Assembly: GCA_946699065.1 (NCBI GenBank)
Contig: CAMPDV010000092.1
Coordinates: 372,001 to 436,000, forward strand
Direction: 5' to 3'
Length of the DNA stretch: 64,000 nucleotides
Source: Loxodes magnus
Lineage: Eukaryota; Ciliophora; Karyorelictea; Loxodida; Loxodidae
A program made the position numbers and the translations under genes. Every line of letters starts with the position of its first letter. Position 1 is the first letter of the stretch. Below, one piece after another: positions 12,057-54,109 of the stretch. The notes under the pieces are model-generated. The model did no database searches. It had not been told where the DNA came from and saw nothing but the letters and a program-made list of their open reading frames with translations.

Positions 12057-12077
12057 CCTGAATTTTTATATTTAACA

Positions 12078-12122: not shown

Positions 12123-12129
12123 TAAAATA

Positions 12130-27230: not shown

Positions 27231-30200
27231 TCAGACAATTGTATAGGTTATCAGAAATGAAGGATAAGCTCTTCCATTCTCGTATATGATGTACATTCCG
27301 TTGCCATTTGTTATAGAATCATATCTTTTCTTGAAATTTTAGTATTTCTAATTTTAAGGTGGATGTTTGTATTTTTTTTTAGGTAGTTAGATTACTTCTC
27401 CAACTAAAACATCGCAAAAAAACATTTAGTATTAACCATTTTCTTAATAAGCATAATCTTGATAAGAGTAATTTGCATCTCTTGCAAAATAAATACCTTT
27501 TCCAAAAAATCCATCGCTTGCATATTTAAGATCTAATCCAATATCACTTGAACTTATTTCTTGGGGTTTTGTACTACTTGTACCATGAAACAACTATAAA
27601 ACTTTTGGTTTATATCCATAAAATTCGTTCATAAGTTTCTCTTCACTCTTAAATTTCTTATACAGCATTAAATTCTATAATATTTTTATTTTTACTACTT
27701 AAACATCATCAGTAGTTTCATTTATTCTATTTACTATTTCCTAATATAATTATTAGTTAGGTCGCAAATTATATTCACAATAGATACCTTAAAAGCTCTC
27801 TTTTCAGTAGCGAGGAAATTAAATCGTATTTTGGGATTTCAGAATTTGTAAATTAGTTTGATTTATTTTCTCTTAAGCACTTTAAACTTTTTCTTGTGAT
27901 CCTTAAATCAAATATCCAGATTCATTAAATGTGAGAAATACTCCTTCTTACAATACTATTTAGAAAGTTTCATCCAAATCTTAAACAAAAATTTGTTAGC
28001 TTTAATAAAATTATTAAATGAAGTTAAAGCAATTCTAAACATTTTCCTTTAAGCCACTTAAAGTTATTTCCCCAACAGGACGTGGATACATCGCTCTTAG
28101 TAACTCTCTTTATTCGTTTGTTTTAATATTCTTTTACTTCATTTGTTAAAAATCTATTTCGTATATTTATTTTGTGTCAGTGAACTTATGATTTTAATAT
28201 CCAGATTAGAAAGCTTAATTAATTTGAATATTTAGATTTTCATCATATTACTTAAACCCCTTAAAGTCTTTCCAAGCAAATTGATAGCATATATTTTATT
28301 GCCATAATTTTTTTTATTAAATTGGCTTGAAGATTCTTTATATTGCTCTTGTGAATATAGTTTCACAATTTTTCTACTTCATTTAAACGAAATCCAATTC
28401 GTATTTAACTGTTTATTCTTTTGCTTAAATTAAGATTTCATGTTTAGAGTATTTTTTAGTTTAGTATAAAAATTCTATTTTAATTGAATCATTAATTTCA
28501 TATGAAACCCACTTATTCTCATCATACCACTACCATATTACTTAATATTATTCTTTTTTTTAATCTCTTTTTATATCTCTCAAAAAATTTGTAGCTGTAT
28601 TTTTCTGTTTCATTTTGGTAAAATTTATTTCATAAGATTTGTTTGTTTTTGTCTCATTTGAATAAACTTATAATTATAGATTTTAGTTCTTTTGAGTTTA
28701 GTAAGCTTTTTCTATTTTTATTTGAATATTCTATTCATATTTTACTCACTTATTTCCTTCTTCTTCTTCTCAATATCACTCATAAGTTATTTTAAAGTAT
28801 TTAATTTACTTTCTTATTTCTCTTTCATACTATGTACTTAAGTTTATCTGCTTCATTTTTTGTAAATTTATTTCATAGGCATTTTATTCGTTGTATTTAT
28901 TTGATATTTGTATTTAAATTACTTTTTAATTCTTTTTTTTGTAAGCTTTTATAATAGTTTGATTAGTTTAATCGTCATACTCGACCCATTTGTTCGTAAA
29001 TTCCTACCACTCTCATATCTCCTATTCCACAATATTTTGTTCTTCTTCCAAATTTTATTAATTTAATTATCTTCTGATTTTCCTCTCGAATTATGTTTCA
29101 TTATTGATTTATTTCATTTAGCTTAAGTCTATTGTATACCCAGATTATTCTTAAGAAGAACTAGATAATTTAATAGGGAATTTCTATTGTTTATTTTTAG
29201 CATAAGCTGCTTCTATTTACGTCAATCTTTACTAGTCATAATCTTTTCAATCACTTTCATCTCACCATTGTCATACTATTTTCACTTATTATTACAAGTA
29301 TTAATATTCTTAAGTTTATTAGATTTACTAACTACAAGAAATCCAATATAAAATACTTTATTAACTGCACATTTATTTAATCTTTAAGTTAATATCTTCC
29401 TTTAATAATTACTAAAGCTGAGATAATGAATAGACTTCTATTTTCTTTTTAACTATTTAAATTTATTAAGTTATTTGAGTTAGCTACTAAACAAAACTAT
29501 CGAAAATTTATTAGTCTCAGGTTTCTATTTTAATTGCTATCTTTTACTAAATTTAGTTTGAATTATCTAAAACACCTTTAAATTTTGTTAGCAAGGTTTC
29601 AAATTAATTATTTAGACCTAGATTACTTTTTATTTAGTTATATATTGATTTTTATATATCTGTCGTATAAAATTTAACTACTTCATACTAGCTTTAAATT
29701 TTGTCTTTTGCATTTTTTACGTTTATATACTCTCCTACTATCACTAAATCCTAATCTTTTATGTTCAATCCACAACCTTTAAAATCTTGCATTATTAAGT
29801 TATAGTTTTAATTCTAGTTGATGTATTTTTACTAGAATGCTTAAGAGGATTAAGGACTCATTTTTACCTATTCTTCTTTTAAGCTCATTTTGAATTACTT
29901 GAGATTTTTAGCAAAATCATTCACAATCTATTTATCACCAAGGAACTTTATTTTATTTACTTTAACTTTAATTTCAATATCCTCATTCAACTATTACTGT
30001 TCTTGCCATAATTTGAAAACAGGGTAAAGATATTCCTCATAAGCTTCATTTAGTTTTTCTTTAAGTTTACTTTGCATCTTTTAAATCTAGTCTTATACCT
30101 CTTTAATTTCTTTGATAGAAGTTTTTAATCAGTCTTATTATTCTGAGAATTAATATGTTTATAACTATTTTGGAGATTTCTAACTTAATGCGCTTTAAGC

Positions 30201-30581
30201 GAGATCTTATTCTTTCATTTTCTTATGCTTGCTTCTTAGCTTTGCTTTTTAAATTGAAGTTAGCTATAGTCCTTATTCCTAAAGTAGGTTGATAACTTCT
30301 TCAATATCACTATTAATAAAATCTTATTTTTAAGGAAATAATTCTGATATTATTTAAGCTATATTTTCTTAACTTTCTAGCTCTTATACTCAGTTATTAT
30401 TTTTCATTTTCTAGTAAACACTTATTAGTCTCTAAGTTTAGTTTTAGTTTAATTCAACAAAGTTTGCTAGATTCTATACTTCATTAAGACTCATAGCAAT
30501 AAGTTCATTTGGAGAAGTGAGATTTTCAATTTTATCTCTTAAATCTTGTAGACCAAATTAAGTAATTCAGTCCTAAGACAT
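27231..30581 (-). CDS. PARP-type ADP-ribosyltransferase with five WWE domains, copy A
   Basis: 1116 aa from ATG 30581 to TGA 27231, unspliced, exactly in frame. Residues 1-60 resemble a SAM domain (MSQDWITQFGLQDLR ...). A Q/K-rich coil and KH-like stretch follow. Five WWE-type repeats start near 435, 520, 602, 678 and 760, each with W/Y-rich strands (IWQWYDENKWVSYE) and a closing YEINF-type plus KMKQ motif. WWE domains bind ADP-ribose or poly-ADP-ribose units. The C-terminal catalytic fold has LFHGTS (His 999) and GKGIYFA (Tyr 1031). The last strand, AYPSFLITYT, has no Glu, so mono-ADP-ribosylation is expected, as in PARP10/14-type enzymes. Dozens of TAA/TAG codons sit at Gln positions and several WWE tryptophans are TGA. 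It is a full-length member of a local three-gene family; the trigger and targets are unknown. Confidence 0.9.
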
Positions 30582-30821
30582 TATAATTATAATTCAAAGA
30601 GAAAAGCTTTAGATTAAATAAAATTCTATTGTAATCATTTATCAAAGAAAGGTATATTTATCTATATTGCTATCTTCACTTTAACCTTATCCTTCTATTT
30701 TTAGATTGCACCTAAGTAATTAGATATCCAAGTCTTTCTTACTAATATATTTTAGATTGCATGTGTAGATTCAGTCTAAAAATTTGAAAATATTACATTG
30801 GATTTTTGATGTATAAAATTA

Positions 30822-33462
30822 TCAAAATTGAGAATCTAAGTTATTAGTTAATGAATGAAAGTAGAAAAGCTAGAATGAAATAAAGTATTATATAATAATA
30901 AACTAGCTTAAATCATTTCTAATAAACTTATTACTTTTAACATTCTCATCAGCTATTCTCTATTAACTCACTGCTAAGTTCTTCTATGCTTAAGCTTTAT
31001 TTTTTTCTCTTAAGTGGAAAAGCCTGTTTTTGAATGTTAGCTTTTCATTTTGTTTAAACTAAAGAATCCTTAGCTCCAAACTAAAATTTAGGAATATAAA
31101 CAAAATAAATAATGAGATTGATAAACTTATTAAAGGTAAATTAGAATGGTATATTATATATAGGCTAAATAGACAGATAAAGCACTTTTAAATAAAGCTA
31201 TTAAAGATTAAAATGGATCATCCTTACTATATTTGATTTATTCAGAAGAGAAATAAAGGTTATTATTACATAATCATAAGATCTTAGTAATCTTAAAAAT
31301 AATTAGATTATATATAAGTACTAAATTATAAATAATTGGTAGAATAAGGGAATCTAGCTTATTTATACTTAAAATAAATAATAGTTACCCTTATCAAATT
31401 TCATGATAAAATTAGAAGTTAATAAAATATAATTAAAAGCTAAAGCTAAAGCTAAAACTAAGCTAAATACTAAACATCGAAAATATATTTTGCTTTTTTA
31501 ATAAGTTGAATAAGAAAGTTGGCAAGTGCTTTATCAAAGACGAATATTCTTTAATTATAATCTAAAGGTATATTATGGACTAGCATTTTAGAACTTTAGA
31601 ACTAAAATAAAATGTTTTACTAAAGCCTTTTATACAAGACAGTTATATCTATCTCAAATTAATAGTAGAAATAGTAGTAATCTATATTACTTTTCTACTA
31701 ATTGTAAAAAGCCCGGTATGATTATATTTAGGTTTAGTTATATTTGAACTAAGAATTTAGTTTAAAGTAATAGTCATTTGAGATAAGCTATATAAAATAT
31801 TATTTGTTTAGAAGTTATCTTAAATTGTCTTGCTCTAAATATAATTGGTTCATTTCATTATGATTTTTATATGTAGAGATTACTTTAAATTTATTTAAAG
31901 ATCATTTCTATGCTTTATTGCTTCGCTTTATCATCTCATTAGATAAATTACTTTCTAGATATTTTTTTAATTCTTTGATGGAAGGAAATTTTCAAATGAT
32001 TTGAACTTCTAAAATTATATTAAACATAAAAAAAGGTAGCAGTTCATTTCAAAGTGAGAGATTTTTCGAAGATGTCATGAAATTTGTGTTCAAATTGCTT
32101 GATACATTTCTATTAAATTATTTGAACATTAATTTATATAATTAACAGGATATATGCTTCAATTGCATTTTTTTTCTTTAAAATATTTTTCTTAAATTCT
32201 TCTCTTGCTTATTCCATTGCTAAAATGAATTGTTTTGTTCTTATATCTTCATTTTTTCAATTTTATCTAGATTAACTTTAAATTATTTTATTTTTTCTCT
32301 TATAATTCAGTTGTTTTAGATAATAGATATTATTTATAAATTTTAAATACATATTTACCTTTCGCAGCTAGTTATATATTTAAAGTAATTGCAAAATTTA
32401 CTCTTTCACTTCATAAAATTGCTTCATAAGTTTATTAGGTTTGATAATGAGTATTCATTAGTAGTTAGCATCATAGTTAGTCAGTTATTAATTTTTATTA
32501 AGTGTATAATTTATCAGATTTTACTTTTAGTCTAAAAAAATTAAAGTATTCTGTTCTTATCTAATTCCTAAATTATTTTTACACATATTATGTGTATACC
32601 ATTGGATTGATATAAAAGGAAAAATTAATTATAAATTTGTTCAGATTTAATAATTTTAGCTAGAACACAAAATGCATTTAATATCATATACTTGCTAAAA
32701 TTATTTTAATCCTAGCCTTAATCCACTAAAATTTATCCTAGATGAATTTCTATCGATAATTAATCTTAAAATAAAGAATATCTTTCTCTAATACTCATTT
32801 ATATTAAGATAGCATCCATAATTATTATAGTATTTTGACTTTATGACTGCCTTAGATAAATATTTTTAATTATCAAAGATAGAGATTCTATTCAAAATGC
32901 ATTTTGATGTTATTTTAATTTCTATAAATTTTCTCTAATCATTCATATAGCTCGCCTTTCAGCTTCAAGTTAAAAGTGTTTTTGTTAGTATAATAATTCA
33001 CTCTCCTAATTTCTACTTGTCTTGCATTTATTCTCTAGTTATTTACTGTCTTTTATCTTGTATTTGATATTTGTTTCTTTCTCCACAGTGTTCCAGTTTC
33101 TTAGAGATAAAATTAAGAAGCTCTTCCTTTCAATTCCTAGAAGGCTATATTCCACCGATATCACTTCTTATTCTTTTTGTCTTAGTAATTTCCATCATAA
33201 ATTTCAATTATTGTTCCAAATGAGCATTTTTTTCTTGATTTTGAAATTTTCTTTCTTGTTTTTCTATATCATGAGATTCCTTTTGAAGATTTCTACTATC
33301 TTTCTTTAATTTATTGAATCTTTTCTTTAATTATACTCAATTTTTCTCGTTTTACTCTCTCATAATTCAAATATTATTCTCAACCCTGTCCCTTTTTTCA
33401 TAAATTCCATCTTTAGTTCTTCGGTCTACCATATATACCTCATCATAGTCTTCAAGTTTCAT
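30822..33462 (-). CDS. Hypothetical protein upstream of PARP copy A
   Basis: I do not recognise this. From ATG 33462 the frame reads MKLEDYDEVYMVDRRTKDG and a Glu/Lys-rich coil. Many of its codons start with G, a sign of real coding. Removing a 16-nt GT...AG segment (33001-33016) joins it to a frame (LEAERRAIWMIRENLQKL) that stays open to TGA 30822; the total is 875 codons exactly. The C-terminal third is hydrophobic and very AT-rich and could be mis-assigned. Related DNA precedes PARP copy C (54.1-56 kb) and, more weakly, copy B. Short stretches align with conservative changes (QSYRAFYNQQK versus QSYHAFYSQQK). The start is uncertain because the frame extends further upstream through a hydrophobic segment. 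Confidence 0.35.
33001..33016 (-). other. Putative 16-nt intron
   Basis: On the minus strand GTAGAAATTAGGAGAG. It has the same length as the RBR intron. Its removal links two frames with protein-like codon structure. Confidence 0.4.
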
Positions 33463-35950: not shown

Positions 35951-36210
35951 TAATTTTGGTTCTTGAGTATGAACCTATTAACTTAGGAAGAAAAGTTAAT
36001 TAAATCCTATAAATGTAAAATAATTAAGACTTATAATTATTATAAATTTATCTTAATCTAGAGTTTTTTATAAATTTAGACTTGTACTAAATTTAATAGT
36101 AGTTATAATATACATCTTTTACATTTAGACCCTTTAATAAATTCTAAATATCTTAATTTATTTATAAATTTAAATAAATAATAATTTTTAAGTTTAAGTT
36201 GTTAAGTTCT

Positions 36211-39200
36211 TCAGACAATTGTATAGGTTATCAAAAATGAAGGATAAGCTCTTCCGTTCTCGTATATGATGTACATTCCGTTGCCATCTGTTATAGAATC
36301 ATATCTTTTCTTGAAATTTTAGTATTTCTAATTTTAAGGTGGATGTTTGCATTTTTTTTTAGGTAGTTAGATTACTTCTCCAACTAAAACATCGCAAAAG
36401 AACATTTATTTTTAGCCATTTTCTTAATAAGCATAATTTTTATAAGAGTAATTTGCATCTCTTGCAAAATAAATACCTTTTCCAAAAAATCCATCGCTAG
36501 CATATTTAAGATCTAATCCAATATCACTTGAACTTATTTCTTGCGGTTTTGTTTTACTTGTACCATGAAACAACTATAAAACTTTTGTCTTATATCCATA
36601 AAATTCATTCATAAGTTTCTCTTCACTCTTAAATTTCCTATACAAAACTAAATTCTGCAACACTGTTATTTTTATTACTTATGCGTTTTTGACTGTTTCG
36701 TTCATTCTACCTACTATTTCCTAATATTGTTATAAGTTAGGTTGTAAATCAAATTCATAATAAACATCTTATTAGTTCATTTATCAGTAGGTAGGAAAAG
36801 TAATAGTTGTCTAGGATTTTAGAATCTATGCATTATTTTAATTTATTCTTTTATAAGCACTTTAAACTTTCTCTCTTGAACCTTAAATTAAATGTCCACT
36901 TTCATTAAAAGTAAGAAAAACTCCCTCTTGCTCTACTATCTTGAAGGTTTCTTACAAATCTTGCACGAAAATTAATTATTCATTAAAATACTATGATATG
37001 AAGTTATAACAATGAGTCACATTTTAGTTAAAACCACTAAAAGTTATCACTCCAACAGGGTAAGGATACATTGCTCTGAGAATCTATCTTTATATGTTTG
37101 TCTTAATGTTCTTTTGCTTCATTTGCTAAAAATCTATTTCGTATATTTTCTTATTTATAGCTATTTGGTATTGAATCTCCTAAGCCAAGAATGCTTAATC
37201 AATTAACTTGTTTGAACTTTCATCGAATTATTTATATCCGTCAAAAGCTTTCCAAGCAAATTGATAGATTATGTTTTTATTTTATTAAATTGGTTTAAAG
37301 ATTCTTTATATTGCTCTTGGAAATCCAGTTTAACAATTTTTCTAAATCATCTAACTGAAATCCAATTAGTATTTAACTGGCCTTCCCTTTACTTAAATGA
37401 ATATTTCATGTTTAGAGTATTTTTTAGTTTAATATAAAAATTCTGCTTTAATTGAAATATTAAAGTCATAAGAAACCCATTTATTTTCATCATACCACTG
37501 CCATGCTACTTATTACTACTCTTTTTTTTCAACTCTTTTTATATCTCTCAAAAAATTAGTATTTGTGTTTTTCTGTTTCATAGTGGTAAAATCTATTTCA
37601 TACTATATAATTATCTATTTCTTATTTGATTTGATTTATAACTTTAATATTTAATCTTTTTAAGTTTTATAAGCATTTTCTATTTATGTCTGGGCATTTT
37701 TTTCATAGCTAACTCCCAAATTTCCTCTATCTATTCATTATCAATCATAGAATATGTTAAAATATTTATTTTGCCTTTTTATTTCTCTCTCATGCTAGTT
37801 GCTAATATTTTTCTGCTTCAAGTTTAAAAAATCTATTTCGTAGGTATTTTATTCTTTTTGCTTATTTTATATGTTTACTTAAATACATGATAAAGGATTA
37901 TTTTTATAAGCTTTCACTATAGTTTGATTTATATCCTCATTATACTCAACCCATTTATTCTGAAATTCCTACCAATTTCATATCTCTAATTCAAAAATAT
38001 TTAGTGTTTCTTAGGCTTTTTACAGAACTTATAATCTTCGGATTTTCCTTTCAAACTTAGTTTTTATGTTGATTTATTTCATGCAAATGAAATTTATAAA
38101 ATAGTTTTATTATTATTAAGAGTTATTTTGCAACTAGATTGTTAATTACTAATTTTGATTAAAAGTATAAGCTGCTTCTATTTGAGTTTAAATTTGTTAA
38201 TTATATTCTTTTCAATCTATTTCGTCTTACCATTCTCAAATTATTTTTACTAATTATCAAGATTATTTGCTATTTTCTTATTCTGTTATTTACTAGTTTT
38301 GCTAGCTGTATGGAGTAGATAGGTATTGAACACCTTATGAATTGCATATTTATTAGATCTTTAACTTAACATCTTCCTTTTGTAAATACTAAAACAACGA
38401 TAAAGAATAAATTTCTACTTTCCTTTTTTCTGTTTAAATCTGTTAAGTTATCTAATTTAGCTACTGAACAAAGCTATCAAAAATCAACTAACTTCAAGTT
38501 TCTACTTTTATTTATATCTATTGATAACTTTATTTTGAATCTACTTATGTACCTTAAAATTTTGTTAGCAAGGTTTCAAATTAATTATTTAGACCTAGAT
38601 TACTTTTTATTTAGTTATATATTGATTTTTATATATCTGTCGTATAAAATTTAACTACTTCATACTAGCTTTAAATTTTTTCTTTTGCATTTTTTACGTT
38701 TATATACTCTCCTACTATCACTAAATTTTAATCTTTTATGTTTAATCCACAACCTTTAAAATCTTGTATTATTAAGTTGTAGTTTTAATTCTAACTGAGG
38801 TATTTTTACTAGAATGCTTAAAAGGATTAAGGACTCATTTTTACCTATTCTTCTTTTAAGCTCATTTTGAACTATTTAAAATTATTAATAAAGTTAGTCA
38901 CAGTTAATTTATCGCCAATTAATTTTATTTTATTTTATTTAACCTTAATTTCGATACCCAAATTCATCTATTACTGTTCTTGCCATAATTTGCAAACAGG
39001 GTAAAGATGTTCTTCAAAATCTACATTTTTGCTATTTTTAAATTTTTTATCAAGGGTTTACTGCATCTATAAAAGGCATTATTTAATTTCTTCAATTTCT
39101 TCGGGTCTTGGAGTCATTACCTATGAATTTATTTATTAAAATGGATTCGCCGATATAATTATTGGACCTTAGTGATTATTTAAGTTTTAAGCGAGACTTT

Positions 39201-39573
39201 ATTATTTCATTAGTTAATGCTTACTTTTTAATTTTTCTTTTTGACGAGAAGTTAGCTAGAATTCACTATCTTCAAGCAGGTTTATAAATTCATCAATACT
39301 TCTTTCAATAAAATCTTGCTTTTAAAGATATAATTCTGATATAATTTAAGTCAAACTCTCTTCTTGATCTAGCTCTTTTACTCAGCTTTTACTTTTCGTT
39401 TTCTACCAAACACTTAATAAATTCTAAGTCTAGCTTTCATTTAGTTTAGCTTTACTTGCTAGTTTTTAGACGTCCTGGTGGCTTATTTATACAAATTTAC
39501 TTTCTTAAACTACCTCTTCAATTTGAAATCTTAATTCTTCTAGGCCTGATAAAGAAATTCAGTCCTAATACAT
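36211..39573 (-). CDS. PARP-type ADP-ribosyltransferase with WWE domains, copy B
   Basis: 1120 aa from ATG 39573 to TGA 36211, with no frame break. The architecture is the same as copy A: SAM-like N-terminus (MYQDWISLSGLEELRFQIEE), coil and KH-like part, WWE repeats, and a catalytic domain with LFHGTS (His 1003) and GKGIYFA (Tyr about 1035). It is the most diverged of the three in the N-terminal fifth but nearly identical to copy A in a patch at 38,573-38,730 (A: 29,590-29,750) and nearly identical to copy C in another near 36,760-36,860. The terminal strand again lacks Glu. Its upstream neighbour region ends abruptly at the LINE insertion at 40.72 kb, so its promoter region may be shortened. 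Confidence 0.88.
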
Positions 39574-40721: not shown

Positions 40722-40746
40722 TAATAAATAAATAAATTTTATTATA

Positions 40747-40777: not shown

Positions 40778-40790
40778 TTTAATAAATATT

Positions 40791-43700
40791 TCAATACATG
40801 TCTATTTCTTCAACTAAGCCTTCAGGTAATAGAAATTCTTCTCTTATTAGTTCCATATCTTCATCATTTTCTTCTTCATTATCTCTTGTTCTTCTGTCTT
40901 CTATCTATCTACGTTTTATTGATTCTTTGTTACAAGCGTCCATTATTTTTTCTTACATACTTTACTAATTTTCGTTTCTAATTCTTTTCTTCTTAATCAA
41001 ACTTTTATAAACTCATAAAAATTATCCTTTTCCTGCTCTATAATATTTTCCTATTTCTTTTTTTCATTCAATTTTCTTTTCTAAGTATCCTTTTTTTCTT
41101 TTTTCTAATATGTTTTTGATATAATCTTTTATTATCAAGTCAGTTTTAGCTCTTTTTTACTCTTCTTAGTTTCTAATGAATTTTTCGAATTTTGCCGAAC
41201 CTCATATTATATCAAATAGTTCCATTCCTTGTCTCTCTACTCCTATTGTTCTTAACTTTCAAATACATATTTATCTACTTTCTTTGTATTCTGAGCATTT
41301 TTCTATGATATGCCTTTCGTTTTCTCTTGCATCATTACAGAAAGGGTATTTGCTTGTCACAACTAGGTGTCTTTCTTTTAAACAATCCTGGCTCTCATTA
41401 CATCTCGTTCTTATTCTAAATATGTAGCATATTTCTTCTTTTCTATTTTTATTATATCTCAGGTAGTTGGGTGGTCCTACTACATATTCATCAAATTATG
41501 TTTTTCTATACTGTAGAGTTGCTACCATTTACTCCATTCTTTCTCTATCTTCTACGTATACTCTATGTTCTCAAATTGCACGATTAATGTTTTTTCTTCC
41601 CTTTTTGGTTATTATTACCATCATCTATAAATATATCTTTGTTTTCAATTTTTAATTCTAATTTTATTGTCGTGCAGTATTGTTCAAAAATAAAGTTCTC
41701 TTCTTTACTTAGGTCGAACATTAATCCATCTACTGTTTTTTCTTAGTTACCTATTAGTCTGCCTCTTAATCTCAGCGTTTTCTGCCATAGGTAATGTTTT
41801 TATTTCTATAAACTGTAACTCGTGTTCTAGAATCTCATTTTACACTTAGAAAGGGGCTTCTATGATTGTTCGTAAAGATCTTCTCTACATTATTTCTAAT
41901 TGCTCTATCACTTATTTTCCTACAAATTATTCACAATATAGGATAACTTCTGTTCCATAGCTGAATACTGAGCTTACGAACATTTTTATCATTATTCCTG
42001 CATTATATGGTGTTAATCCCTTATTCATTGTTATTTTACCCAGTATTCATGTTTACATCTTTTATACTGCTTCTAATCTGTTCTCCATGTGTTTTTCAAA
42101 GCTGATGGTCTCTTCTATTATATGCCCTAGGTACTAAAAGGACGTTACTCTTTCGATTCTTAAATTTCCCACCTCAATAGTATTGCCTATATTTTCTCAG
42201 TTTCTATTTTCTACTGCTTTTCATATCATTCATTTTGTTTTATCTGCAATTTCCAATTTGTATTTTTCTGCCCATGAGGTTAAATTTTTGATTACTTCCT
42301 CCAATTATTCTCATTCACTTATTAAGGCTAGGTCATCTGCATATGCAAAACATCCTGCATATATTTATTGTGTTCATCCCTCTTAGTTTTTAAAGTCTAT
42401 CGTAATTCCTAGCTTTTAATCTTCCAAACTATGGAGAAGTCTTGCTATTATTAAGTTAAATAGTCTTGGCGACGTTATGCTTCCCTATTTTAGCCCTTTA
42501 TTTGTCGCGAATGATTTTGCTATTTATTCATTGATTTTAAGTTTAATTTCTTCTTCACAGTAGAAGTTTGCTAGGAGTTTAATTATCTATTCTGGTACTT
42601 TTAGATCGTTTAGGTTTTATCATATATCTTTTCTTTGCACCGAGTCTTACGCTTTCTTAATATCAACAAATATTACGAAAACATCTTTTTTGTTCCGTAT
42701 TGATCATTCCTATACTGTTCTTAGGTTGAAAATTTATAGTGAGCATGATTTTCCTTTTTTAAAGCCATATTAATATTCGCTTTCATCATTATGCAGATAT
42801 CCTTATAGTTGCTAGAAAATTCATGCATCTACTTTTTTTAAAGCATGATTCAGTAAAGAGATTGGTCTATAATTCATCGGGTTCATCTGTCCTCCTTTTT
42901 TGTATATTAATATTATGTATTATTATTTTATCTCTTAAGGTATTGCTCCCTCTTAAATCATCTTAACTATCATTTTACATGTTACTTCTGTTAGTTTTTT
43001 CCCACCTGCTAATATTGTGCCTACTTGTATTTCATCAGGTCCTGCTGCTTTTCATTTCGCCAATTAGTTGATGATTTCTCAAATTTCATATTCGTTTACC
43101 ACTATTTATCTCTTGTTTAAGAATTTAGTTGGTAGCATATTATCACCATCTTCATACAGTTTCTACCATTCATCCCTGAAAGTATTAACATCTTCTTTTA
43201 ATAAGGGTACTCATTAATTATTTTTTCTATTAAGTAAGCTTTTTAGTTTCTTCCACATATCTGTTAGACTTCCTTTATTTACATTGTCCATAAATAGGTT
43301 TAGTTAGTTTCTTTTATCTTTTTTTCTTGATTAAATGTATTCTTATCTTACTCTTTGGTATTCTCTTTGATTCTCAATTTATTGATTTTCATTTATTTGT
43401 TCTCTGTTCTTTACCCTTTATTTTAATTGTTTGCTGCATTTTCTAAAGATTTTATTACACTATTTTGTTGTTTCTGAATATTTATATATCTTAGAGTTTT
43501 ATGTTTTGAATTTTCCACATACTATTTAAACTCCTTCTTATATCTTTTTCTTTCATCATTTATAAGTCTATGTGCCGTTTAGGTTATCAATTTCTTCTTC
43601 TTAAAGATTTTCTTGTATAAATCTTTCAAATTTTTCTTATATCTCTTTTTTCTTTAATAGTAGGTAGTTTATTTTTGCTATCTTTTATGGCTTTCTTACT

Positions 43701-44320
43701 TCTTTACCCATCTTTACCTATATAATACCAGGCCTATGGTCACCTATTACGTATGAGTAATAAAAATCCCTCTTTAACACCTTTTCTCTTATACTCTCTT
43801 CGATTAAAAAGTAATCTATTTTATACTCATTGTTTTAGTGAATAAAGGTACCTATTTCAGTTGGGTCTAGGCATATTAAATTATTCTGTTCCATAAACTG
43901 TGTCATTCTCTTTCCTGCTGAGTTTGTTTTCTTTGGCAGTCATTTTTCTATGTGCGCATTTCAGTCTCCTATTATCATTATATTAAGTCCTTTTTCTATT
44001 GCTTATAGTTTAAATTCATTCACTAAATTATAGAAAGGCTCATACTGTTCGTTGTTATTTGTAACAGGAGCGTAGACATTTATTACTGCTAATTATTTCA
44101 TTATTTCTATTGCCATTACTCTCACTCCTCCAAAGAGCGTCATTTAGTTTACTTCATTCTATATCTCTCTGATCTCCTTACATAAGTCGTTTCTAATATA
44201 GAATGCTACTCCTTTTCCTTTTTTGATCCCACATTTATTAAGTTTTTATATCCTGCTATATTACACATATCTTTTTAGTCTTCAATCTAAATCTCTTATA
44301 TTGCCATTATGTGGATATTT
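40791..44320 (-). pseudogene. LINE ORF2: APE endonuclease + reverse transcriptase
   Basis: Endonuclease motifs in order are IMAIQE, GVAFYIRND, INVYAP, GDWNAH (43952-43969; TGA as Trp), IDYFLIEE and GDHRPG. Reverse transcriptase motifs in order are AAGPDEIQ, NYRPISLLN, FVDIKKA, GLKQGS, FAYADDLAL (YADD at 42332-42343) and YLGHIIEE. A Cys/His cluster (FCNDARENERHIIEKC) precedes the C-terminal GLVEEIDMY and TGA 40791. It nicks DNA and copies its RNA at the nick. The frame is open from 44218 through the reverse transcriptase, but slips occur at A6 runs 44318-44323 and 44219-44224 and again between about 41.8 and 41.59 kb. It is therefore either slightly decayed, affected by homopolymer errors in the assembly, or read by frameshifting. 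Confidence 0.8.
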
Positions 44321-44321
44321 T

Positions 44322-46220
44322 TTGAGTCATGAATTTGGCTAGTGCCTCTTTTGCACTTCTTACTCCCCTAACATTTGCTGTCCCTATTTTTATGACTTAT
44401 TCTTAATCTTTTTTTACACCCATTCCCTCTACTTCCTCTTCACCTTATTCTTCTTTTTATTCATCTTCCTTCTCCACCTTTTCTTCTTCTTATCTATCAT
44501 TCTATGCTTCCATATTATTTTCCTTATTAGTTCTTTCCCCTTTTTTATCTTTTTCATCTTATTATCTACCTTTTCCTTCTTCTTATCTATTCTAATCTTC
44601 TTCTTTTTCTTTTTCCTTTTCCTATTAGTTGTAGTTGGATAATTGTTCATTTTTGTTTTTCGGTTTCTTAGCATAGTACATTCTAATTGAAGTTTTCTTC
44701 AATTTACTTCTTTCTTCTCACCATGCATCTTATTCTTTTTCTCCTTGAGTTTGTTTCTATTTCTTTTTGCTTTTTTTTTTTATTTACGTTTTCCTTGCAT
44801 ACTCCATTATACTATTTTGATTATTTCTTAGTTTTTCTGTTAGGGTTTAACATTTTTGCCATCACTTATCCTATCCTTTTCTCTATTTTGCTTTATGGTA
44901 TATCTTATTATTTAGTTGATTGTTTTCTATTTTATTTAATTATTTGAAAATTTCTCTATCCCTTTGTCTTACATATGTCCAATTCCATTTTGATGAAAAA
45001 TAATATTTATTTATTCTTTTAGCATAAAAAACTTTTTATTATTTAATTGTTTAGTTGTTTTAATTATTTTTCTATTCTCCTCATTTTATTTCCTTCTCTT
45101 CTTCCTTTGATTCCTCTATAATTATTTATTCTTCTTCTCCAATTATCCTCTTATTTGCTTGATTTGCTTCAAAGTCTGGTTTGTTTATTGTTAAAATAAC
45201 TTCTCCTTCAAGCATCTCTAATTCTCTTGCATGTAGCTTTTTCCTTTTTGCTGCTTCCACCCTTCTGCATTGCTGGTCTGTGTGCCCTTTCACTTTACAT
45301 AGGCAGCAGATAAAATTTACTGGGTGTTATATTCTCATTTTGTTTCCATTCAAATCTATTACTTCTTGTATCCTCTTTGCTTCGTCTACATCCTTTAAAT
45401 CTAGGTAGACTACACTGCTCCCTGTTAGGATTGTTGTGTTTGGATATGTATGCTATATCTCTCCTCTTGATTTCCCTTATTATCTTATTATTTTCATTAC
45501 TTCCTTCATATTTGAGTATTCGTTAATTATGAAGTAAATTGGGTAGTTATGAGAGTCAAAATATTCCAATTAGTTTCTAGCTTAGATAGGAATTCTAACT
45601 CCTTTGAATGTTCATTCCCTGAATTAAGTGAAATGTTAGTATCTTTCTTCATTGTTAAATACCAAGTATACAATTCCTTTTTATTTCACTATGAACTTCG
45701 CCACTGCTTGTCCGTAATCCTTCCATATTTGATTTCTAAACACTTGTATAACTTCTTAGTCTTTGGCCTTTTTCTCTACTAAATCAGTATTTTCCAAGTA
45801 ATGGTTAAAGTAAATTGTGGCCACCATTTCTGATAAATCATCATAGGCATTTTAGTAGACCCTTTACATTTATTCTTCAGGGACGTTGGCTGAAATGAGT
45901 TGTTCATTATTTTATTAAATTATTACTTAGGCTGTTTACTTTTTTTATCACATTCCTTTCTTATTTTGTGCTCCTCCTTTTAGTAAAGTCCGACCAATCA
46001 TGGGTATGATATTTTTTTTCTATTATTCGTTCTATTATTTCGTGTTCGTTCGGTCAGTTAGTTTGGTCCTGCGTAGTCTGAGGTCTTGCATTATTAGTCT
46101 GGTTTCCATGCATAATAAAGAAGATTGGAATAATTGAAGCAAAGACGTGGTAAAAGAAAGTGCTTCAGGTTTTCTCTCCTACTCTGACGAGGTGGTATAA
46201 AAACCCTTCTTGAAGTTATC
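44322..46220 (-). CDS. LINE N-terminal frame: RRM-like + CCHC zinc knuckle
   Basis: 633 codons open in one frame. It starts in the leader DNFKKGFYTTSSEQERKPE; the ATG present in Gag copies is ATT here, so the true start is uncertain. The central part (EMVATIYFNHYL ... IVYLVFNNEERY ... FKGVRIPI) has the alternating strands of an RRM-like RNA-binding fold, and VVYLDLKD follows. The zinc knuckle is CCLCKVKGHTDQQC. A long Lys/Glu/Gln-rich spacer then leads straight into the first endonuclease words (IGTANVRGVRSAKEAL) before the frame slips at 44318-44323. It probably binds the element RNA. It may be one polyprotein with ORF2. The plus-strand fragment at 12.1-13.3 kb is a relative. Confidence 0.7.
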
Positions 46221-46228
46221 AATTTTTT

Positions 46229-46902
46229 AATATATATATAATAATAAAATGCTCATATACAAAAATTTATATTTATTGCTTATATATTTACTAGTTAATT
46301 TTAAGTGATCTAGATTAAATTTATTTAGTCAAGCATGCTGGATTAATTATATTCAGAAATTGTCTTATAACTATTAAAAGTTATCTTTGCATCTGTATGC
46401 TTCAGTCTTTGATCTCGTAAGATAAATTTCTTTCTAATTAAATTGTATAACTTATATTTTATTTTTCTGAATAAAACATATCAAGTTGATTCTGTTTTCG
46501 TCTGGTCTATTATTTAAATGAATTGTTTTTTATAATAGTATATTTATCAAAATTTGTATAGATAAATTGTATATGGCTTTTTAGTTCTCTCTTATACATT
46601 CTATTATTTTTCTAAAGTTTAAAAGGAATATTTTATAAACTGAAATTTACTCTTTTGTAGCTATTTTAATATTTGAGTCATTGTTAATTTTCTCTTTCAT
46701 ATCATAAAGTAAGATACATTAGTTGTATATGCTTGCTAATTTTATAAGAATATTGAGAATAGAAAAATCTTAGTAAATTAGTCTCTTTGCGATAGTAATC
46801 ATTTAACATTAAGTTTGACTTTAAGCCTAAAAATATAAAATAAGTCTCTTCTTATAATATACATTAAACTTACTTATGAACTAGTTAAATAGATTTTTAA
46901 AA
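46229..46902. other. AT-rich spacer, no gene seen
   Basis: It separates the head of the minus-strand LINE from a plus-strand Gag family 2 element. No motif is seen. Confidence 0.4.
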
Positions 46903-47740
46903 ATGGAAAAAAAGCCGGAAATCTAAACCTTTAATTCTAACCTTAAAGATCAATCTTAAGTCTCAGTTAACTAACAAGAACCAAGAATTCAAAAAAGATA
47001 AACCTACTCCTGTTAAAGATTGGGAAATACAGAATTTCCTAGCAAAGTGAAAAAGCTTGAGAAACCCCACGAGCAAGACATTATTTAGCTTTATTCATTA
47101 ATTGAGAAAATGAGATGCTGAAGGCGGAAAACTTGAATCTTCGGCTTCTTTAGTAAGATAGAAAAAAGGAAGATCAAGACTTGGTAAGTAAATTTTAGTT
47201 TTAAATTGAAGCCTTAACTTCCTAATTTGAACTATTAGAAAAAACCTAGTAGCAAATCAATAGAAAATTAAAGAAGAAATTTGATTACCAATCAAAAAAA
47301 ACTAACCTCAAACAGATAAAATGGAAATTGAAAAAATGTAAAAAGAATTAAAAGTTTTAATTCAAACCCTTAATAAAACGTTGCTATTGTTGTCAAAAAG
47401 CAGGACATTTTTGGAGGTAATGTCCGAAGTGAAGAAGAGTGCTTGAGCTGCATTGTAAAGAATTTGGAACATCGAGGAGGCTATATTTTAACTACTTTAG
47501 AGATATTTACAGAAAGAGCTGATATTAGATTATTCAAGTGTGACTCTAATCAAAAAAGTTCTTGGTAATTAATAGTAACAGAATAAATAGCTTTAAAAGG
47601 ACAACAATGACCTTAGAATTTGTTTAGAGAAGCTGGAGAAAAATTACAAGAAGATGGAAGAACAATTCTATGAGCTTATTGAAGAGAAAGAAGAATTATC
47701 TCAGTTTGAAATTGATTCAGATGAAGACATGTACAGTTGA
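46903..47740 (+). pseudogene. Gag family 2 element, three frames
   Basis: ATG 46903 starts MEKKPEIQTFNSNLKDQ and a Q-rich N-terminus that stays protein-like up to SLIEKM. The coil EMLKAENLNLRLLQQDRKKE and a perfect zinc knuckle (CYCCQKAGHFWRQCPK) lie in a second frame that meets TGA right after the knuckle. A third frame begins with an ATG overlapping that TGA and gives VKKSAWAALQRIWNIEEAIF, a Q-rich stretch and FYELIEEKEELSQFEID, ending at TGA 47738. The overlapping stop/start is unusual and could mean two proteins. The older copy at 19.3 kb preserves the same third frame in part. It is called a pseudogene because the first switch has no explanation. Confidence 0.5.
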
Positions 47741-48534
47741 GTATTGAATATAAAAACTTTTATTGTCTTTAATTTGAGGAAACATTTCCTCTAATTAAAG
47801 ATGACCCTAACCCTTATAGTTAAAATTAATTAATGAACTAGTTAAATACTTAAAATCAGATATATGCTCAAGAAAAGATTCATTATAAATTTAATGAGAT
47901 TTAGTAATCTCAGTAAGATAAATAATTAAGCACTTTTATCTTTTATAAAGTAATTTAAATCTTAATCCATTAAAGTTTATACAAATTGAATTCATACCCA
48001 AAAATTTAAATACTAACTATATAATATCTATATCATAAAGTCATACATCCTTGGATATATTTGGAAAAGTTGCAGTCATGATTGCTTTTATTTAATATTT
48101 TTAACTATCAAATATAGAATTTCCTATATATTTGCATTTTAATGAGTATTTGTTCTATAAACTGTAGTTAAAGTTAAATTCTTTTTATAAGTAAAAAAAT
48201 TTAGTTCTAAATCTACTAGCTAAATTTAGTATATCGAATTAATTAAAAAACCATTTTCTATAAATTTAACTAAATCACTTGGTTTTTGTACTCATAAATA
48301 AAATATCAACTACGTATTAACAATAAAATAGTAGTCCTAACGAAGTAAATTAATTAGGTTTGAAGATATAAGCATTAATAGATATTATAATAGCATTTTA
48401 AAAGTAAATAGTTAAATAAAAGGAAGAAGTATAAATAATAAGCTATAAAGGTTTATTTTATAAAATGTATTCCTAGTTCATATGAGTAGAAGTATATTAG
48501 ATTAAGAAACAAAATAATACTTATATATAAAAAA
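47741..48534. other. AT-rich spacer with family 2 3' end
   Basis: The family 2 element ends near 47,835 with a GAGGAAA/TTTCCTC palindrome and GACCCTAACCCTT, matching the end of the 19.3-kb copy. The rest holds nothing recognisable. Confidence 0.45.
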
Positions 48535-49443
48535 ATGGAAGGATTCAAAAGAGGTTTCTACACCACCTCCAAAAAGTTGGAGAGGAAACCTGAATCCAAT
48601 CTTGGATAGTCTTCTTACCCTTAACCCTAACCTTTTTCTTAATTCTAACAACCTGAAGAGGAACAGAAATAAGCTCAGAAGACAACACATGAGATAACTC
48701 CAACATCAGAAGAGAAGCCCAGAAACCAGATGAAGTCTGCTCTGCACCAGGAGGTCTCAAAGTTCAATCCTTCTGGTCAGATGAGCATGGAACAGCTCAT
48801 CAAAGTGGTCCTAAACCTTCAGGAAGAGGTTAGGAAACTGAGAAAGGACAATGAGAAACTGATGGAAAAACTCAACTTAGCGGAAGTAATAGAATCCAGA
48901 CTTATGTCCTAAGAAAGAGAACTAAGCGCTTTCTGAAACATATCTTAAGACCAGAGTAGCTAATCCTAAAATTAGCTTCAGAAACAATCTGATATGAGTA
49001 TTAAACTGGAAATACTAGAAAAAAAATTAGATGAACAAAGGGGAGATCCAATGATGATTGAAGAGACTAATAGGAAGACTAAGGTTAAACTCCAAAAAGT
49101 AGTGAAGAAATGTTACTACTGCAATTCGACAGGACACTTATGAAGACGCTGCAAGGAATTCCAAAATTTCAAGACGTAGTATTGGAATAAATAAAGAACC
49201 ATACAAGCACAGTAGAGGAAGAAAAAATAAATGTAGTAGAGACAAATAAGAGAAAGATTATACTTAAATGAATAAGGATACATTTAAAAGAGAAAATTTA
49301 ATTAGAAATAAGGTTAGATCCGGAAATAACAAGAGTAATGGGAGGAGAGAGGTGTAGAGACATCTAAAACTTTATTTTTAACACTGGAGCAATCTGGTGT
49401 CCAGCATGAAGAGGTGAAAATCCTCGAAAATTGCTACATTTAA
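48535..49443 (+). CDS. Retroelement Gag-like protein, family 1 (ORF1), intact
   Basis: An open frame of 302 codons from ATG 48535: leader MEGFKRGFYTTSKKLERKPE, a P/Q-rich stretch, KSALHQEVSKFNPSGQMSME, the coil LNLQEEVRKLRKDNEKL, ESRLMSQEREL, and a complete CCHC knuckle (CYYCNSTGHLWRRC, Trp by TGA). A strongly basic Q/R/K tail follows. Family members bind nucleic acid in the retroelement particle. The sister at 11.2 kb ends at a TGA just before two hairpins; here the matching codon appears to be TGT, so the frame runs through the hairpins (49384-49425) to a TAA at 49441. That end is therefore uncertain. No endonuclease or reverse transcriptase follows, so the element depends on another for movement. 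Confidence 0.75.
49384..49425 (+). other. Paired 3' hairpins of Gag family 1
   Basis: Hairpin 1 (49384-49404) pairs CTGGA with TCCAG. Hairpin 2 (49411-49425) pairs GAGG with CCTC. Same lengths (21 and 15 nt) as at 12078-12122, with different bases. Confidence 0.5.
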
Positions 49444-50065
49444 TTTATCCTATTATAAATAATATTCATATTGAACTTAATATTTTCTTTAAAAAGATTT
49501 ATAGTTAAGTTAAATGTTTAACTTAAATTACGTCTATTAAATTTAAAATTTTTATATCACTTTCAAAGTAAAAGAAGATACTGTCATAATGATTTTATAG
49601 TTGGGTATCTCAGAGAACTTCTCAATAGAAAATAATTTAGATTTTTTTTGTTTAGCAAGGAAAATTTTAAATAATTTTCTTAAAATTAAAAAGGATTAAA
49701 GTTAGATTTTCAAAGTAATTAATAATTTTTAAAAATCGGACCAAAAAAAAGAAAATTGTCAATGAAGAAATATTTACCCTTGTGAATCTTAATATTTACA
49801 TTTTTGAATAGATTTATTAACTTTATACTATTATACGGTAGATGGAGGAAAAAAGACTTGTAAGTTTTTCTAAAGTATACAATAAATTTTATATTATAAC
49901 GAGAGGTTAAATAAGTTGCAAAAAAGCAAACAAAATAAATTAAAATCATATGAAGAAGTTCTAGTAATACCAGTTGATATAAGTTAAAATCTAAAATCAC
50001 TTAATATTGTAAAAAATTAAAATCGTTTGCCTAGAATGCTAGAATTTTCATAAAGATGTGAAAAA
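49444..50065. other. AT-rich stretch, partly related to 33.9-34.3 kb
   Basis: The text around 49,590-50,040 resembles 33,920-34,320 (both contain an AATAGAAAATAA block and similar following words), so it belongs to the larger duplicated PARP neighbourhood. No gene is called. Confidence 0.4.
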
Positions 50066-50474
50066 TTTAAGTCTTATTAATAGCTAATTAAGTAATTCTT
50101 AGCTAGTAAACTACAAAGCTTGAAATTTTATTTGATAGAGTATCTCTTATGTAAGTTTTAAAATTATAAATTAATCATAAACTAAAGCATTTCAAACTTA
50201 GGTTATTCTATTCTCTTTATTAGTAACTAAGAAATACTAAAATTATTATTTAACTCTTAATTTATCAAAAATTGCTCAATTTCGAAAATGTATATATTTC
50301 TATTTGTATACCTAAAGATTAAACTATGAACATTCGCTGTGAAGCTTAAGGCTAATTAAAATAAAACTTTATAAGAATGATGCTATATATTAAATTAAAG
50401 CTTATACTAAAGATAACTATCTCGTTAAAATATTTATTTAAATTGGTATATTAAAAATTAATATCTATAAAATT
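50066..50474. repeat. 409-bp block repeated at 35542-35950
   Basis: See the partner block. It lies downstream of PARP copy C, has the same length and only a few differences. Confidence 0.75.
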
Positions 50475-50734
50475 ATTAACTCAGGAAGATAAAGTTAATT
50501 TAACTATATGAATATAACTTAAAAATGTATATCATTTATAATTAGATAAGATTTTACCATTATTTAAAGCATTTTCTGAAATTTATATCTATAAATTCTT
50601 AAAAGTTACAATATAATTATTTTAAGCAACTCTATGCTTTTAAAATCTTGATAAGTTTAAATTTCCTAACTTAAATATATCATTTTTTAAAAATAGATTT
50701 ATAATTAATTTTTAAGTTTAAGTTGTTAAGTTCT

Positions 50735-53700
50735 TCAAGAAATTGTATAGGTTATCAAAAATGAAGGATAAGCTCTTCCGTTCTCGTATATGATGTACAT
50801 TCCGTTGCCATTTGTTATAGAATCATATCTTTTCTTGAAATTTTAGTATTTCTAATTTTAAGGTGGATGTTTGTATTTTTTTTTAGGTAGTTAGATTACT
50901 TCTCCAACTAAAACATCGCAAAAGAACATTTAGTATTAACCATTTTCTTAATAAGCATAATCTTGATAAGAGTAATTTGCATCTCTTGCAAAATAAATAC
51001 CTCTTCCAAAAAATCCATCGCTAGCATATTTAAGATCTAATCCAATATCACTTTAACTTATTTCTTGCGGTTTTGTTTTACTTGTACCATGAAACAACTA
51101 TTAAGTTTTAACTCTATACTTATAAAAATCTTCCATATTCTACTATTCACTCTTAAATCTCTTATACAAAACTAAATTCTGCAACACTGTTATTTTTATT
51201 ACTTATGCGTTTTTGACTGTTTCGTTCATTCTATTTACTATTTCCTAATATTGCTATTATTTAGGTTGTAAATCAAATTCATAATAAACATCTTATTAGT
51301 TCATTTATCAGTAGGTAGGAAAAGTAATAGTTGTCTAGGATTTTAGAATCTATGCATTATTTTAATTTATTTTTTCATAAGCGCTTTAAACTTTCTCTCT
51401 TGAACCTTAAATTAAATATCCACTTTCATTAAAAGTAAGAAAAACTCCTTCTTTTATTATTAACTTGAAGGTTTCTTCCAAATCTTGCACGAAAATTTAT
51501 TAGCTTTAAAAGAATTATTAGATGAAACAATCACAGTTTGCTACACTTTAGTTAAGACCATTTAAAATTATTTCTCCAACAGGTCGTGGATACATCGCTC
51601 TTAATATCTCTCTTTATTAGTTTGTTTTAGTATTTTTTTACTTCATTTGCTAAAAATCTATTTCGTAAAATTGCTATTTTTCAGTGAATTGGTAATTCTA
51701 ATATTAAGATTAAAACGCGAGATCTATTTGCGTGTTTATATTTTCATCATATTATTTAAACCCTTTAAAATCTTTCCATGCAAATTGATAGATTACGTTT
51801 AGTTGATTTTTATCATTGCTTTATAAAAATTAGTTAAAGATTCTTTATATTGATCTAACGAATCCAGATTAGCAATTTTTCTACTTCATCTAACCGAAAT
51901 CCAATTCGTATTTAACTGACTATTCCTTTACTTAAATTAAGATTTCATATTTAGAATTTTTCTTGGTTTAGTATAAAAATTCTATTTTAATTGAAATATT
52001 AAAGTCATAAGAAACCCATTTATTTTCATCATACCATTGCCATGCTACTTATTACTACTCTTTTTTTTCAATTCTTTGTACATCTCTCAAAAAATTAGTA
52101 TTTGTGTTAACCTATTTCATCGTGGTAAAATTTATTACATAAGCTTTATTTGTCTTAGTCAAATTTTTTTCAATTTATAGATCAAATAATTAGCCTTTTT
52201 AAGTTTAGTAAGCGTTTTCTATTTTTTTCTGTATATTTGAGTCATAACTTATTCATTCATTTAATTCTTCTTTCCATTATCAATCATAAGTTATTTTAAA
52301 GTATTTAGTTTACTTTCTTACTTCTCTTTCATACTATGTATTAGAGTTTTTCTGCCTCATTTTTAAAAAATCTATTTCATAGGAGATTTATTCTTTTAAT
52401 TTATTTGGTATCTTTATTTAAATAAATGATAGAGGATTTTTTTAATATGCTTGCTTAATAATTTGATTAGTTTAATCGTCATACTCGACCCATTTGTTCA
52501 TAAATTCCTACCACTCTCATATCTCCTATTCCACAATACTTTGTACTTCTTCGACTTTTTATTTATTTTATTATCTTCTGATTTCCCTCTTGAATTATGT
52601 TTCATTATTGATTTATTTCATTTAACTTAAGTCTATTGTATACCCAGATTATTCTTAAGAAGAACTAGATAATTTAATAGGGAATTTCTATTGTTTATTT
52701 TTAGCATAAGCTGCTTCTATTTACGTCTATCTTTACTAGTCATAATCTTTTCAATCACTTTCATCTCACCATTGTCATACTATTTCAACTTATTATTACT
52801 ATTAGTTTTATTATAGGTTTTATTATGGCTAAATGATTTAACTTTGTTCAATGGAAGTAATCTAATAATTAACACCCTATAAATCGCATATTTATTAAAT
52901 TTATTATTCTATTTCCTATTTTTGTAAATAATTAAATAAAGATTATGAATAGACTTCTATTTTCTTTTTATCTATTTAAATTTATTAAGTTATTTGAGCT
53001 AGCTACTAAACAAAACTATCGAAAATCTATTAGTCTCAGGTTTCTATTTTAATTGTTATCTTTTTTTAAACTTAATTTTAATTATCTAAAAGGCCTTAAA
53101 ACTTGGTTAGCAAGGTTTCGAATTAATTGTTTAGATTTAGATTTTTTTTAATTTAGTTATATGCTGATTTTTATATATCTGTCGTGTAAACTTTAACTAC
53201 TTCATATTCACTTTAAATTTTGTCTTTTGCATTTTTTACGTTTATATACTCTCCTATTATCACTAAATTCTAATCTTTTATGTTTAATCCACAACCTTTA
53301 AAATCTTAGATTATTTGATCGTAGTTTTATTTCTAACTGAGGTATTTTTACTAGAATGCTTAAAAGGATTAAGGACTCATTTTTACCTATTCTTCTTTTA
53401 AGCTCATTTTGAACTTCTAGAAGTTATTAAAATAGCTAGACACAGTTAATTTATCCCCAATGAATTTTATTTTATTTTATTTAACTTTAATTTCGATATC
53501 ACCCTTCAGCTATTACTGTTCTTGCCATAATTTGAAAATAGGCTAAAGATATTCTTCAAAAAATACATTTAATTTTTCTTTCGCTTTTTATATCTAAGGC
53601 TTAGGTTTAATGATTGGTTTTTATTTAATAGGCTACTATTGTTTAGGATATTTTAGTTAGGGTTATGCTTTTTAGATTTATTATGTTTAAAGTTTCTTTG

Positions 53701-54109
53701 GAGATTTCTAACTTAATGTGCTTTAAGTGAGATTTTATTCTTTCATTTTCTTATGCTTGCTTCTTAACTTTACTTTTTAAATTGAAGTCAGCTATAGTTC
53801 TTGTTCCTAAAGTAGGTTGATAACTTCTTCAATATCACTATTAATAAAATCTTGCTTTTAAGGAAATAATTCTAATAATGCTTAAGTCAAACTTTCTTCT
53901 TCATCTAGCTCCTTTGCTCAGTTACTATTTTTCATTTACTAGTAAGCACTTATTAACTTCTTAGTTTGGCTTTAGTTTAGTTCAACAATACTTGCTAGCT
54001 TCATTATATCCTAAAGACTCATCGGTATAAGATCGTTAGGATAAACGATTCCTTCAATTTTACCTCTTAGATCTTGTAGACCAAATTAAGTAATTCAATC
54101 CTAAGACAT
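50735..54109 (-). CDS. PARP-type ADP-ribosyltransferase with WWE domains, copy C
   Basis: 1124 aa from ATG 54109 to TGA 50735, in frame throughout. The N-terminus (MSQDWITQFGLQDLRGKIEG) is almost that of copy A; the middle alternates between A-like and B-like stretches. The WWE repeats and catalytic domain are as in copy A, with LFHGTS at His 1007 and the GKGIYFA-type tyrosine near 1039. The last strand is SFLITYTIS, again without Glu. Its stop differs slightly from A and B (TCT TGA). It is likely functional, judging by frame preservation in AT-rich DNA where indels are common. Confidence 0.88.

Follow-up and report, generated by a model that had tools for sequence, protein, structure and literature searches.

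Tandemly arrayed genes for predicted mono-ADP-ribosyltransferases with five WWE domains in the ciliate Loxodes magnus

Gene organization of the window

The stretch of DNA analyzed here (the window) comprises 64,000 nucleotides (nt) of the Loxodes magnus genome assembly (contig C92, positions 372001-436000) and contains three minus-strand genes, named G1, G2 and G3, whose predicted products carry five WWE domains and a PARP-type ADP-ribosyltransferase (ART) domain. The macronuclear assembly of this ciliate is described as 706 Mbp in size and is read with genetic code table 27, in which TGA is either tryptophan or stop (PMC11441545); our searches covered 705,730,643 bases in 7843 contigs. Family loci elsewhere are labelled by contig (C92a-d, C547a-e) or by an L number. 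The three genes are:

27231..30581, minus strand: G1, 1116 amino acids; SAM-like part, KH-like part, five WWE domains, KH-like part and ART domain
36211..39573, minus strand: G2, 1120 amino acids; architecture as in G1
50735..54109, minus strand: G3, 1124 amino acids; architecture as in G1

The pairwise amino acid identity of the three products is 66-74%. The G1 frame contains 106 TAA and 34 TAG codons, which are read as glutamine, and 12 TGA codons, three of them (437, 440 and 445) within the first WWE domain. The 29 nt directly after the stop codon are identical in G1, G2 and G3, and could represent either a conserved 3' untranslated region or a conversion tract.

Catalytic domain and WWE array

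A first-pass annotation, made from the sequence alone, had read the three genes as encoding five WWE domains and a PARP catalytic domain, and the profile searches bear this out. The Pfam scan placed PF02825 over its cut-off (21.1) in 5 stretches of each protein, with 158-182 bits per protein, and PF00644 was matched in each protein once the C-terminal part was scanned alone, which assigns all three by sequence to the PARP/ARTD superfamily. The whole-protein Pfam scan had missed PF00644, a caveat that applies to the negative results of that scan. The domains, located by profile and alignment to other PARPs (ART) and by Pfam and our own WWE profile (arrays), are:

27234..27827, minus strand: G1 PARP-type ART domain, triad H999-Y1031-M1096
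36214..36807, minus strand: G2 ART domain, triad H-Y-M
50738..51331, minus strand: G3 ART domain, triad H-Y-M
28095..29282, minus strand: G1 five-WWE array (29070-29282, 28809-29027, 28566-28784, 28335-28547, 28095-28286)
37075..38247, minus strand: G2 five-WWE array
51599..52786, minus strand: G3 five-WWE array

When G1 was compared with the PDB using phmmer, PARP15 was the best match (E 2.2e-19), followed by PARP12 and PARP14, and the ART domain of an AlphaFold model of G1, built from a 12-row alignment, structurally matches PARP15, PARP14, PARP12, PARP10 and tankyrase 2. Because the third triad residue is not glutamate, G1-G3 carry the sequence mark of the mono-ARTs (Clade 3), and the family probably consists of mono-ARTs.

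Across the alignment of the 15 WWE domains in the window the W6, Y49, Q58, N60 and R67 columns are invariant, and both the adenine-binding glutamine described for WWE domains (PMC11269756) and the pocket arginine are conserved in 15/15. These residues predict ADP-ribose binding, and the function described for WWE domains in the same source is the binding of poly(ADP-ribose) (PAR) or ADP-ribose. Structure prediction, which the first-pass annotation had suggested for this region, returned five alike strand-helix-strand units across the array (10-residue mean predicted local distance difference test, pLDDT, 54-90) within a G1 model that is weak overall (pLDDT 57.4).

Selection and gene conversion

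The preserved reading frame, and the selection that the first-pass annotation had read from it, were both borne out. Gaps among the window genes preserve the frame, and whole-gene omega (dN/dS) for the three pairs is 0.336, 0.382 and 0.415, with a value of 1 rejected. Omega for parts of other pairs was 0.227 (C92a/b), 0.125 (C92a/c), 0.117 (C92b/c) and 0.256 (C547a/b), while the comparison of G3 with C92c was saturated. No positive selection was seen at the whole-gene level; single-domain values reached 1.02 (linker 63-172, G1-G3) and 0.90 (WWE2, G1-G3), and were not relied on because dS differs between domains over a range of 0.05-3.7, a spread that conversion would be expected to produce.

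Similarity among the three genes is mosaic. Their informative sites are clumped: they form 385 runs, where shuffling gives 567.6 on average (standard deviation, sd, 13.7; 0/5000 as low), and those within codons with one amino acid in all three genes form 71 runs against 100.9 (sd 5.8; 0/5000 as low), in shuffles that ignore rate variation along the gene. The longest single-class run within the same-amino-acid codons is unremarkable (245/5000 shuffles), and the G1-G3 identity per 40-codon window ranges from 0.68 to 0.99. The simplest cause of this clumping would be gene conversion or unequal crossing-over, and conversion may depress omega somewhat.

The family across the genome

Contig C92 carries four further family genes after the three in the window, three on the plus strand and one on the minus strand, and all seven together span about 117 kb. 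Twenty stretches were taken from the genome, 14 with an ART match and 6 with WWE domains and no ART match (L016, L020, L022, L024, L026 and L028); among three short extra stretches, C1498 has its ART in a different frame from its WWE domains, and C1026 and C79 have no ART. There are thus at least 19 ART-bearing loci (3 in the window, 4 elsewhere on C92, 3 on C10, 5 on C547 and 1 each on C614, C66, C281 and C1498), a count that leaves out most of the 101 listed WWE matches outside these stretches. L026 (C614:129500-137000) has WWE copies in two frames and no ART was found in it; it could be a broken or an intron-bearing copy.

The triad and the tree were scored on 18 ARTs, leaving out the 19th (C1498). 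The H-Y-M triad is present in 13/18, G1-G3 among them, and tyrosine replaces the catalytic histidine in the other five: C92d (L012), C281 (L017) and C547c, C547d and C547e (the second gene of L018, L019 and L021). Members with this replacement, in which 2-4 WWE domains were found, are likely inactive pseudo-enzymes. With our own profile, 2 to 5 WWE domains were found per ART gene, and in these 18 genes the glutamine and arginine are both retained in 47/61 WWE domains of H-Y-M genes vs 10/17 of histidine-less genes. In a midpoint-rooted tree whose long branches meet and whose deep order is unsure, the 18 ARTs cluster together (100/96) on the side of the PARP14-type sequences, apart from PARP2 and the P0001 type described below.

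Five-WWE ARTs in other sequence collections

The first-pass annotation had noted that one or two WWE domains are common in an animal PARP, fewer than the five seen here. This agrees with animal Clade 3E as described in PMC2964712, but the build is not unique to Loxodes, since five WWE domains with a C-terminal ART occur in 7 of the 34 proteins examined: P0001, P0002, P0003, P0006 and P0030, and also P0031 and P0033, where the first repeat is partial. P0031 is from EukProt and the other six are from metagenomic contigs. The contigs of P0001, P0002, P0003, P0006 and P0030 are all gene-sized (2.18-2.25 kb), and are perhaps ciliate nanochromosomes or transcripts.

These seven proteins share the five WWE domains and C-terminal ART with Loxodes, but five of them are 652-678 amino acids long and are without the KH/SAM region. 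Triads among the P proteins are H-Y-V or H-Y-I (H-H-V in P0030 and Y-Y-I in P0033), in contrast to H-Y-M in Loxodes. No clear positional pairing is seen between their WWE repeats and those of Loxodes (the position pairing had rank 1-20 of 120 among 15 Loxodes pairs vs rank 2-77 of 120 among 12 pairs of Loxodes with P proteins) and the ARTs separate on the tree. A five-WWE ancestor shared by Loxodes and the P0001 type is possible on these sequences, with a WWE tree of few columns and many open forks.

A viral origin of five-WWE ARTs was considered and rejected: scans of viral contigs with P0001 and the 260-codon C-terminal end of G1, in which only close relatives are detectable, gave no relative, and a search of phage records with P0001 gave none either. 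When the 12-row alignment was used to look for homologues (E <= 1e-20, 7995 candidates scored), a single protein was returned, a PARP14 from elephant that spans 18% of G1, and an NCBIfam profile search gave nothing useful.

Sequences flanking the WWE array

The SAM and KH parts named in the first-pass annotation are weakly borne out, the KH matches being sub-threshold and the SAM-like bundle coming from a poor model. The candidate features of G1 are:

30186..30407, minus strand: SAM-like helical bundle, residues about 59-132, from a poor structural model
29682..29984, minus strand: N-terminal KH-like region, from sub-threshold KH matches
29331..29456, minus strand: putative N-terminal half of a split KH domain, immediately before WWE1; G1 itself gives no junction-crossing match
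28002..28082, minus strand: putative C-terminal half of the split KH domain, immediately after WWE5; KH_PARP14_6 match sub-threshold
27837..28001, minus strand: putative additional KH-like unit adjoining the ART domain; sub-threshold KH matches in G1 only and a low-confidence model

A profile scan of the first 130 residues of G1-G3 matched unrelated families only, and the N-terminal part gave three implausible weak matches to solved structures in one search and zero in another. The N-terminal stretches of all three proteins match KH models (KH_1, KH_SLS1_1, KH_PARP14_6 and KH_DTX3L among them), and the post-array stretch of G1 matches KH_PARP14_6, KH_1, KH_DEAH11, KH_N4BP1_2nd and KH_Vigilin, all under cut-off.

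PARP9, PARP10 and PARP14 are described as having a KH domain split by an insert of macrodomains or ubiquitin-interacting motifs (UIMs), then one further KH with a long helix and then the ART; the same source reports split RWD domains that became detectable only after the insert sequence was handled (PMC10450202). We compared the array flanks in 13 of the 18 members, a set without L010, which is almost identical to L009, and without four other members. The majority pattern before WWE1 is I-x-S-x-S-x-L.......G...L..........V...I, with one serine invariant and one nearly so, and it is present even in C92a, C92c, C92d and C281, whose further-upstream sequence fails to align with other members; after WWE5 the pattern is P-x-x-x-I-x-L-x-G....V......I, with the glycine invariant. 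When the flanks were joined (at 41-42), KH_PARP14_8 crossed the junction below the Pfam cut-off in 3/13 members (C614, C547a and C547b), the matches covering residues 20-67 (profile 16-61), 16-58 (profile 13-52) and 19-64 (profile 15-58), and in 0/13 when the flanks were swapped. KH matches of any model numbered 6 with joined flanks vs 1 with swapped flanks, and the best non-KH families in these scans reached only E 0.0026 and 0.002. The stretch after the putative C-terminal half is KH-like in pattern, with a long last helix (897-914) modelled at pLDDT under 50. A WWE array inserted into a split KH domain is a putative reading of these results.

Other results weigh against this arrangement and the reading built on it. 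No KH match attains the Pfam cut-off (best 24.8 vs 27 bits), KH models across 14 N-terminal stretches gave only 3 member-matches (E 0.05-0.07 at best), and KH matches in the post-array stretch occur in G1 only (1/3). The flank boundaries were set by eye, the three members with a junction-crossing match include a pair of close paralogs (C547a/b), the joined flanks of G1, G2 and G3 give no junction-crossing KH match, and the KH_PARP14_6 match of G1 is unchanged by swapping the flank order (0.0064 vs 0.0072). In profile-profile comparisons the joined flanks scored weakly, with 17.0 against a PARP14 set (swapped 18.3; 3/60 column shuffles equally high) and 19.0 against a PARP14-like set (swapped 17.0; 1/60), the unit adjoining the ART was equalled by 1/60 and 7/60 shuffles in two sets, and whole-region comparisons gave E 0.01-0.84. 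Besides the low overall confidence of the G1 model, its N-terminal part is poor (pLDDT 41.1), and the KH-like unit near the ART is mostly below pLDDT 50.

Comparison with known PARPs

PARP14 and PARP15 are nearest to the Loxodes ART by sequence and by fold. The third triad residue is non-glutamate in PARP14 as well, Myripristis PARP14-like proteins also have H-Y-M, and PARP14/15 and the Loxodes genes are both tandem duplicates. The layout described for PARP14, with KH units, an insert-bearing split KH, one more KH and the ART, is the one that we propose for Loxodes, where five WWE domains would stand in the insert position; the WWE that PARP14 itself has is located after its last KH and before the ART, and is described as lacking PAR binding (PMC10450202). 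PARP7, PARP11, PARP12 and PARP13 likewise have a WWE followed by a non-Glu-type catalytic domain, but they have one or two WWE domains (PMC2964712) and most carry CCCH fingers. No macrodomain, RRM or zinc-finger match was obtained in the whole-protein scan, which also missed PF00644, or in the region scans; in the scans made, G1-G3 thus have neither the macrodomain(s) before the ART that define the macro-PARPs (PARP9/14/15) nor the CCCH fingers before the WWE that define the CCCH-WWE PARPs (PARP7/12/13). Tankyrases have ankyrin repeats and an H-Y-E triad. They are PARPs with a SAM oligomerisation domain (PMC10450202), and Loxodes has a putative SAM-like bundle, but the tankyrase SAM adjoins the ART and the Loxodes bundle would lie at the opposite end.

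A 2010 survey placed Tetrahymena PARPs in Clade 3, deemed the grouping artefactual and reported that other known domains were not found in them (PMC2964712). According to a 2014 survey, one Clade 3 protein from Paramecium has a macrodomain, and Clade 3 proteins from choanoflagellates and amoebae include RRM, macrodomain and WWE (PMC4245714). We found no description of the Loxodes family in the literature searched, which had subscription papers outside its scope, and the main text of the L. magnus genome paper (PMC11441545) has no mention of 'PARP'.

Predicted function and alternative explanations

Sequence comparison establishes five WWE domains with a PARP-type domain, the H-Y-M triad, conserved residues in the WWE pockets, genes under purifying selection with mosaic similarity to one another, and family members spread through the genome; the multi-WWE ADP-ribosyltransferase family is real and conserved. 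We think it more likely than not that G1-G3 are functional genes in a family of mono-ADP-ribosyltransferases that expands in tandem and undergoes gene conversion, its products being write-and-read enzymes whose WWE array would sit inside a split KH domain. The SAM-like start would oligomerise the protein, the KH-like units would hold RNA or single-stranded DNA, the five WWE domains, as an insert within the split KH, would bind ADP-ribose-bearing targets at high avidity, and the catalytic domain would put single ADP-ribose units on bound proteins or nucleic-acid ends. Overall this would be a PARP14-like write-and-read enzyme, with WWE domains reading in place of PARP14's macrodomains. Histidine-less copies would act as readers or scaffolds only; PARP9 and PARP13 are readers or scaffolds of this kind. 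Since it clusters with PARP14-type ARTs on the midpoint-rooted tree, a ciliate WWE/KH-like/ART family is relevant to the question of whether the PARP14-type build predates the groups covered by those surveys or has arisen more than once.

A possible but rather doubtful alternative is a general stress or DNA-damage enzyme, in which the WWE array would read PAR made by enzymes of the PARP1/2 type and bring in the mono-transferase. It would have no role in defence, and the family would have expanded through the usual tandem duplication of a large genome rich in repeats. This alternative fits the described WWE function (PMC11269756), the report that PAR sends PARP12 to stress granules (PMC5656619), and whole-gene omega below 1 in the three window pairs, with no adaptive sign at that level. 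Against it speak the KH-like units, which would point to contact with nucleic acids if they are real; sequence cannot separate it from the write-and-read enzyme that we prefer.

We consider unlikely a defence that restricts retroelements or viruses at the RNA level (the first-pass annotation had called a defence role conceivable), in which the KH units would bind foreign RNA or RNA of long interspersed nuclear elements (LINEs), SAM and WWE domains would form ADP-ribose-dependent granules and the ART would mark their components. A reverse transcriptase domain of LINE type (PF00078, E 1.4e-32; 42116-42901, minus strand) lies between G2 and G3, with a zinc-knuckle-like, ORF1-like stretch upstream in the same orientation (43701-46649, minus strand), the two fitting a LINE. 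L. magnus is described as having about 2,700 RVT_1 copies, present in both nuclear genomes, and no extensive DNA elimination (PMC11441545); with so many copies, the LINE between G2 and G3 shows no special association with the genes, and a single LINE in a LINE-filled genome is weak evidence. ZAP/PARP13 restricts LINE-1 in cell culture, but its zinc-finger domain suffices (PMC4441479), and the parallel is weak because no zinc finger was found in the Loxodes scans. Repeated gene birth and loss is described for PARP14/15 (PMC4038475), and the Loxodes family shows growth of the array, mosaic copies and copies without the histidine; against this, primate PARP9/14/15 are reported to be under positive selection (PMC4038475), whereas whole-gene omega in the window pairs is 0.34-0.42. 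A defence role, if shown, would be a lead on retroelement handling in a ciliate without extensive DNA elimination.

Very doubtful is a combined proposal, in which the split KH beside the ART is an old socket for varied reader cassettes (macrodomains in PARP9/14, UIMs in PARP10 and five WWE domains in Loxodes) and the WWE-loaded family multiplied as an RNA-level, ADP-ribose-based restriction of LINEs or viruses; we rate it low because it requires both the socket and the defence role, and the ZAP parallel is weakened. That the genes are mostly decaying duplicates, relics appearing open under a code without a dedicated stop codon, is highly improbable: any frame can be open under this code, L026 has WWE domains in two frames without an ART, L030 changes frame before its ART and 6/20 family stretches carry WWE domains without an ART match, but in the window genes gaps keep the frame, omega is well below 1 with 1 rejected, and the triad and WWE pockets are intact in all three.

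Other features of the window

At 11315-13483 (plus strand) a codon-usage signal marks a 723-codon gene with no PDB or Pfam match. At 9696-10820 (minus strand) lies an open reading frame that weakly matches a RING-finger profile (PF13639, E 2.2e-5, 25.1 bits vs a cut-off of 27.3).
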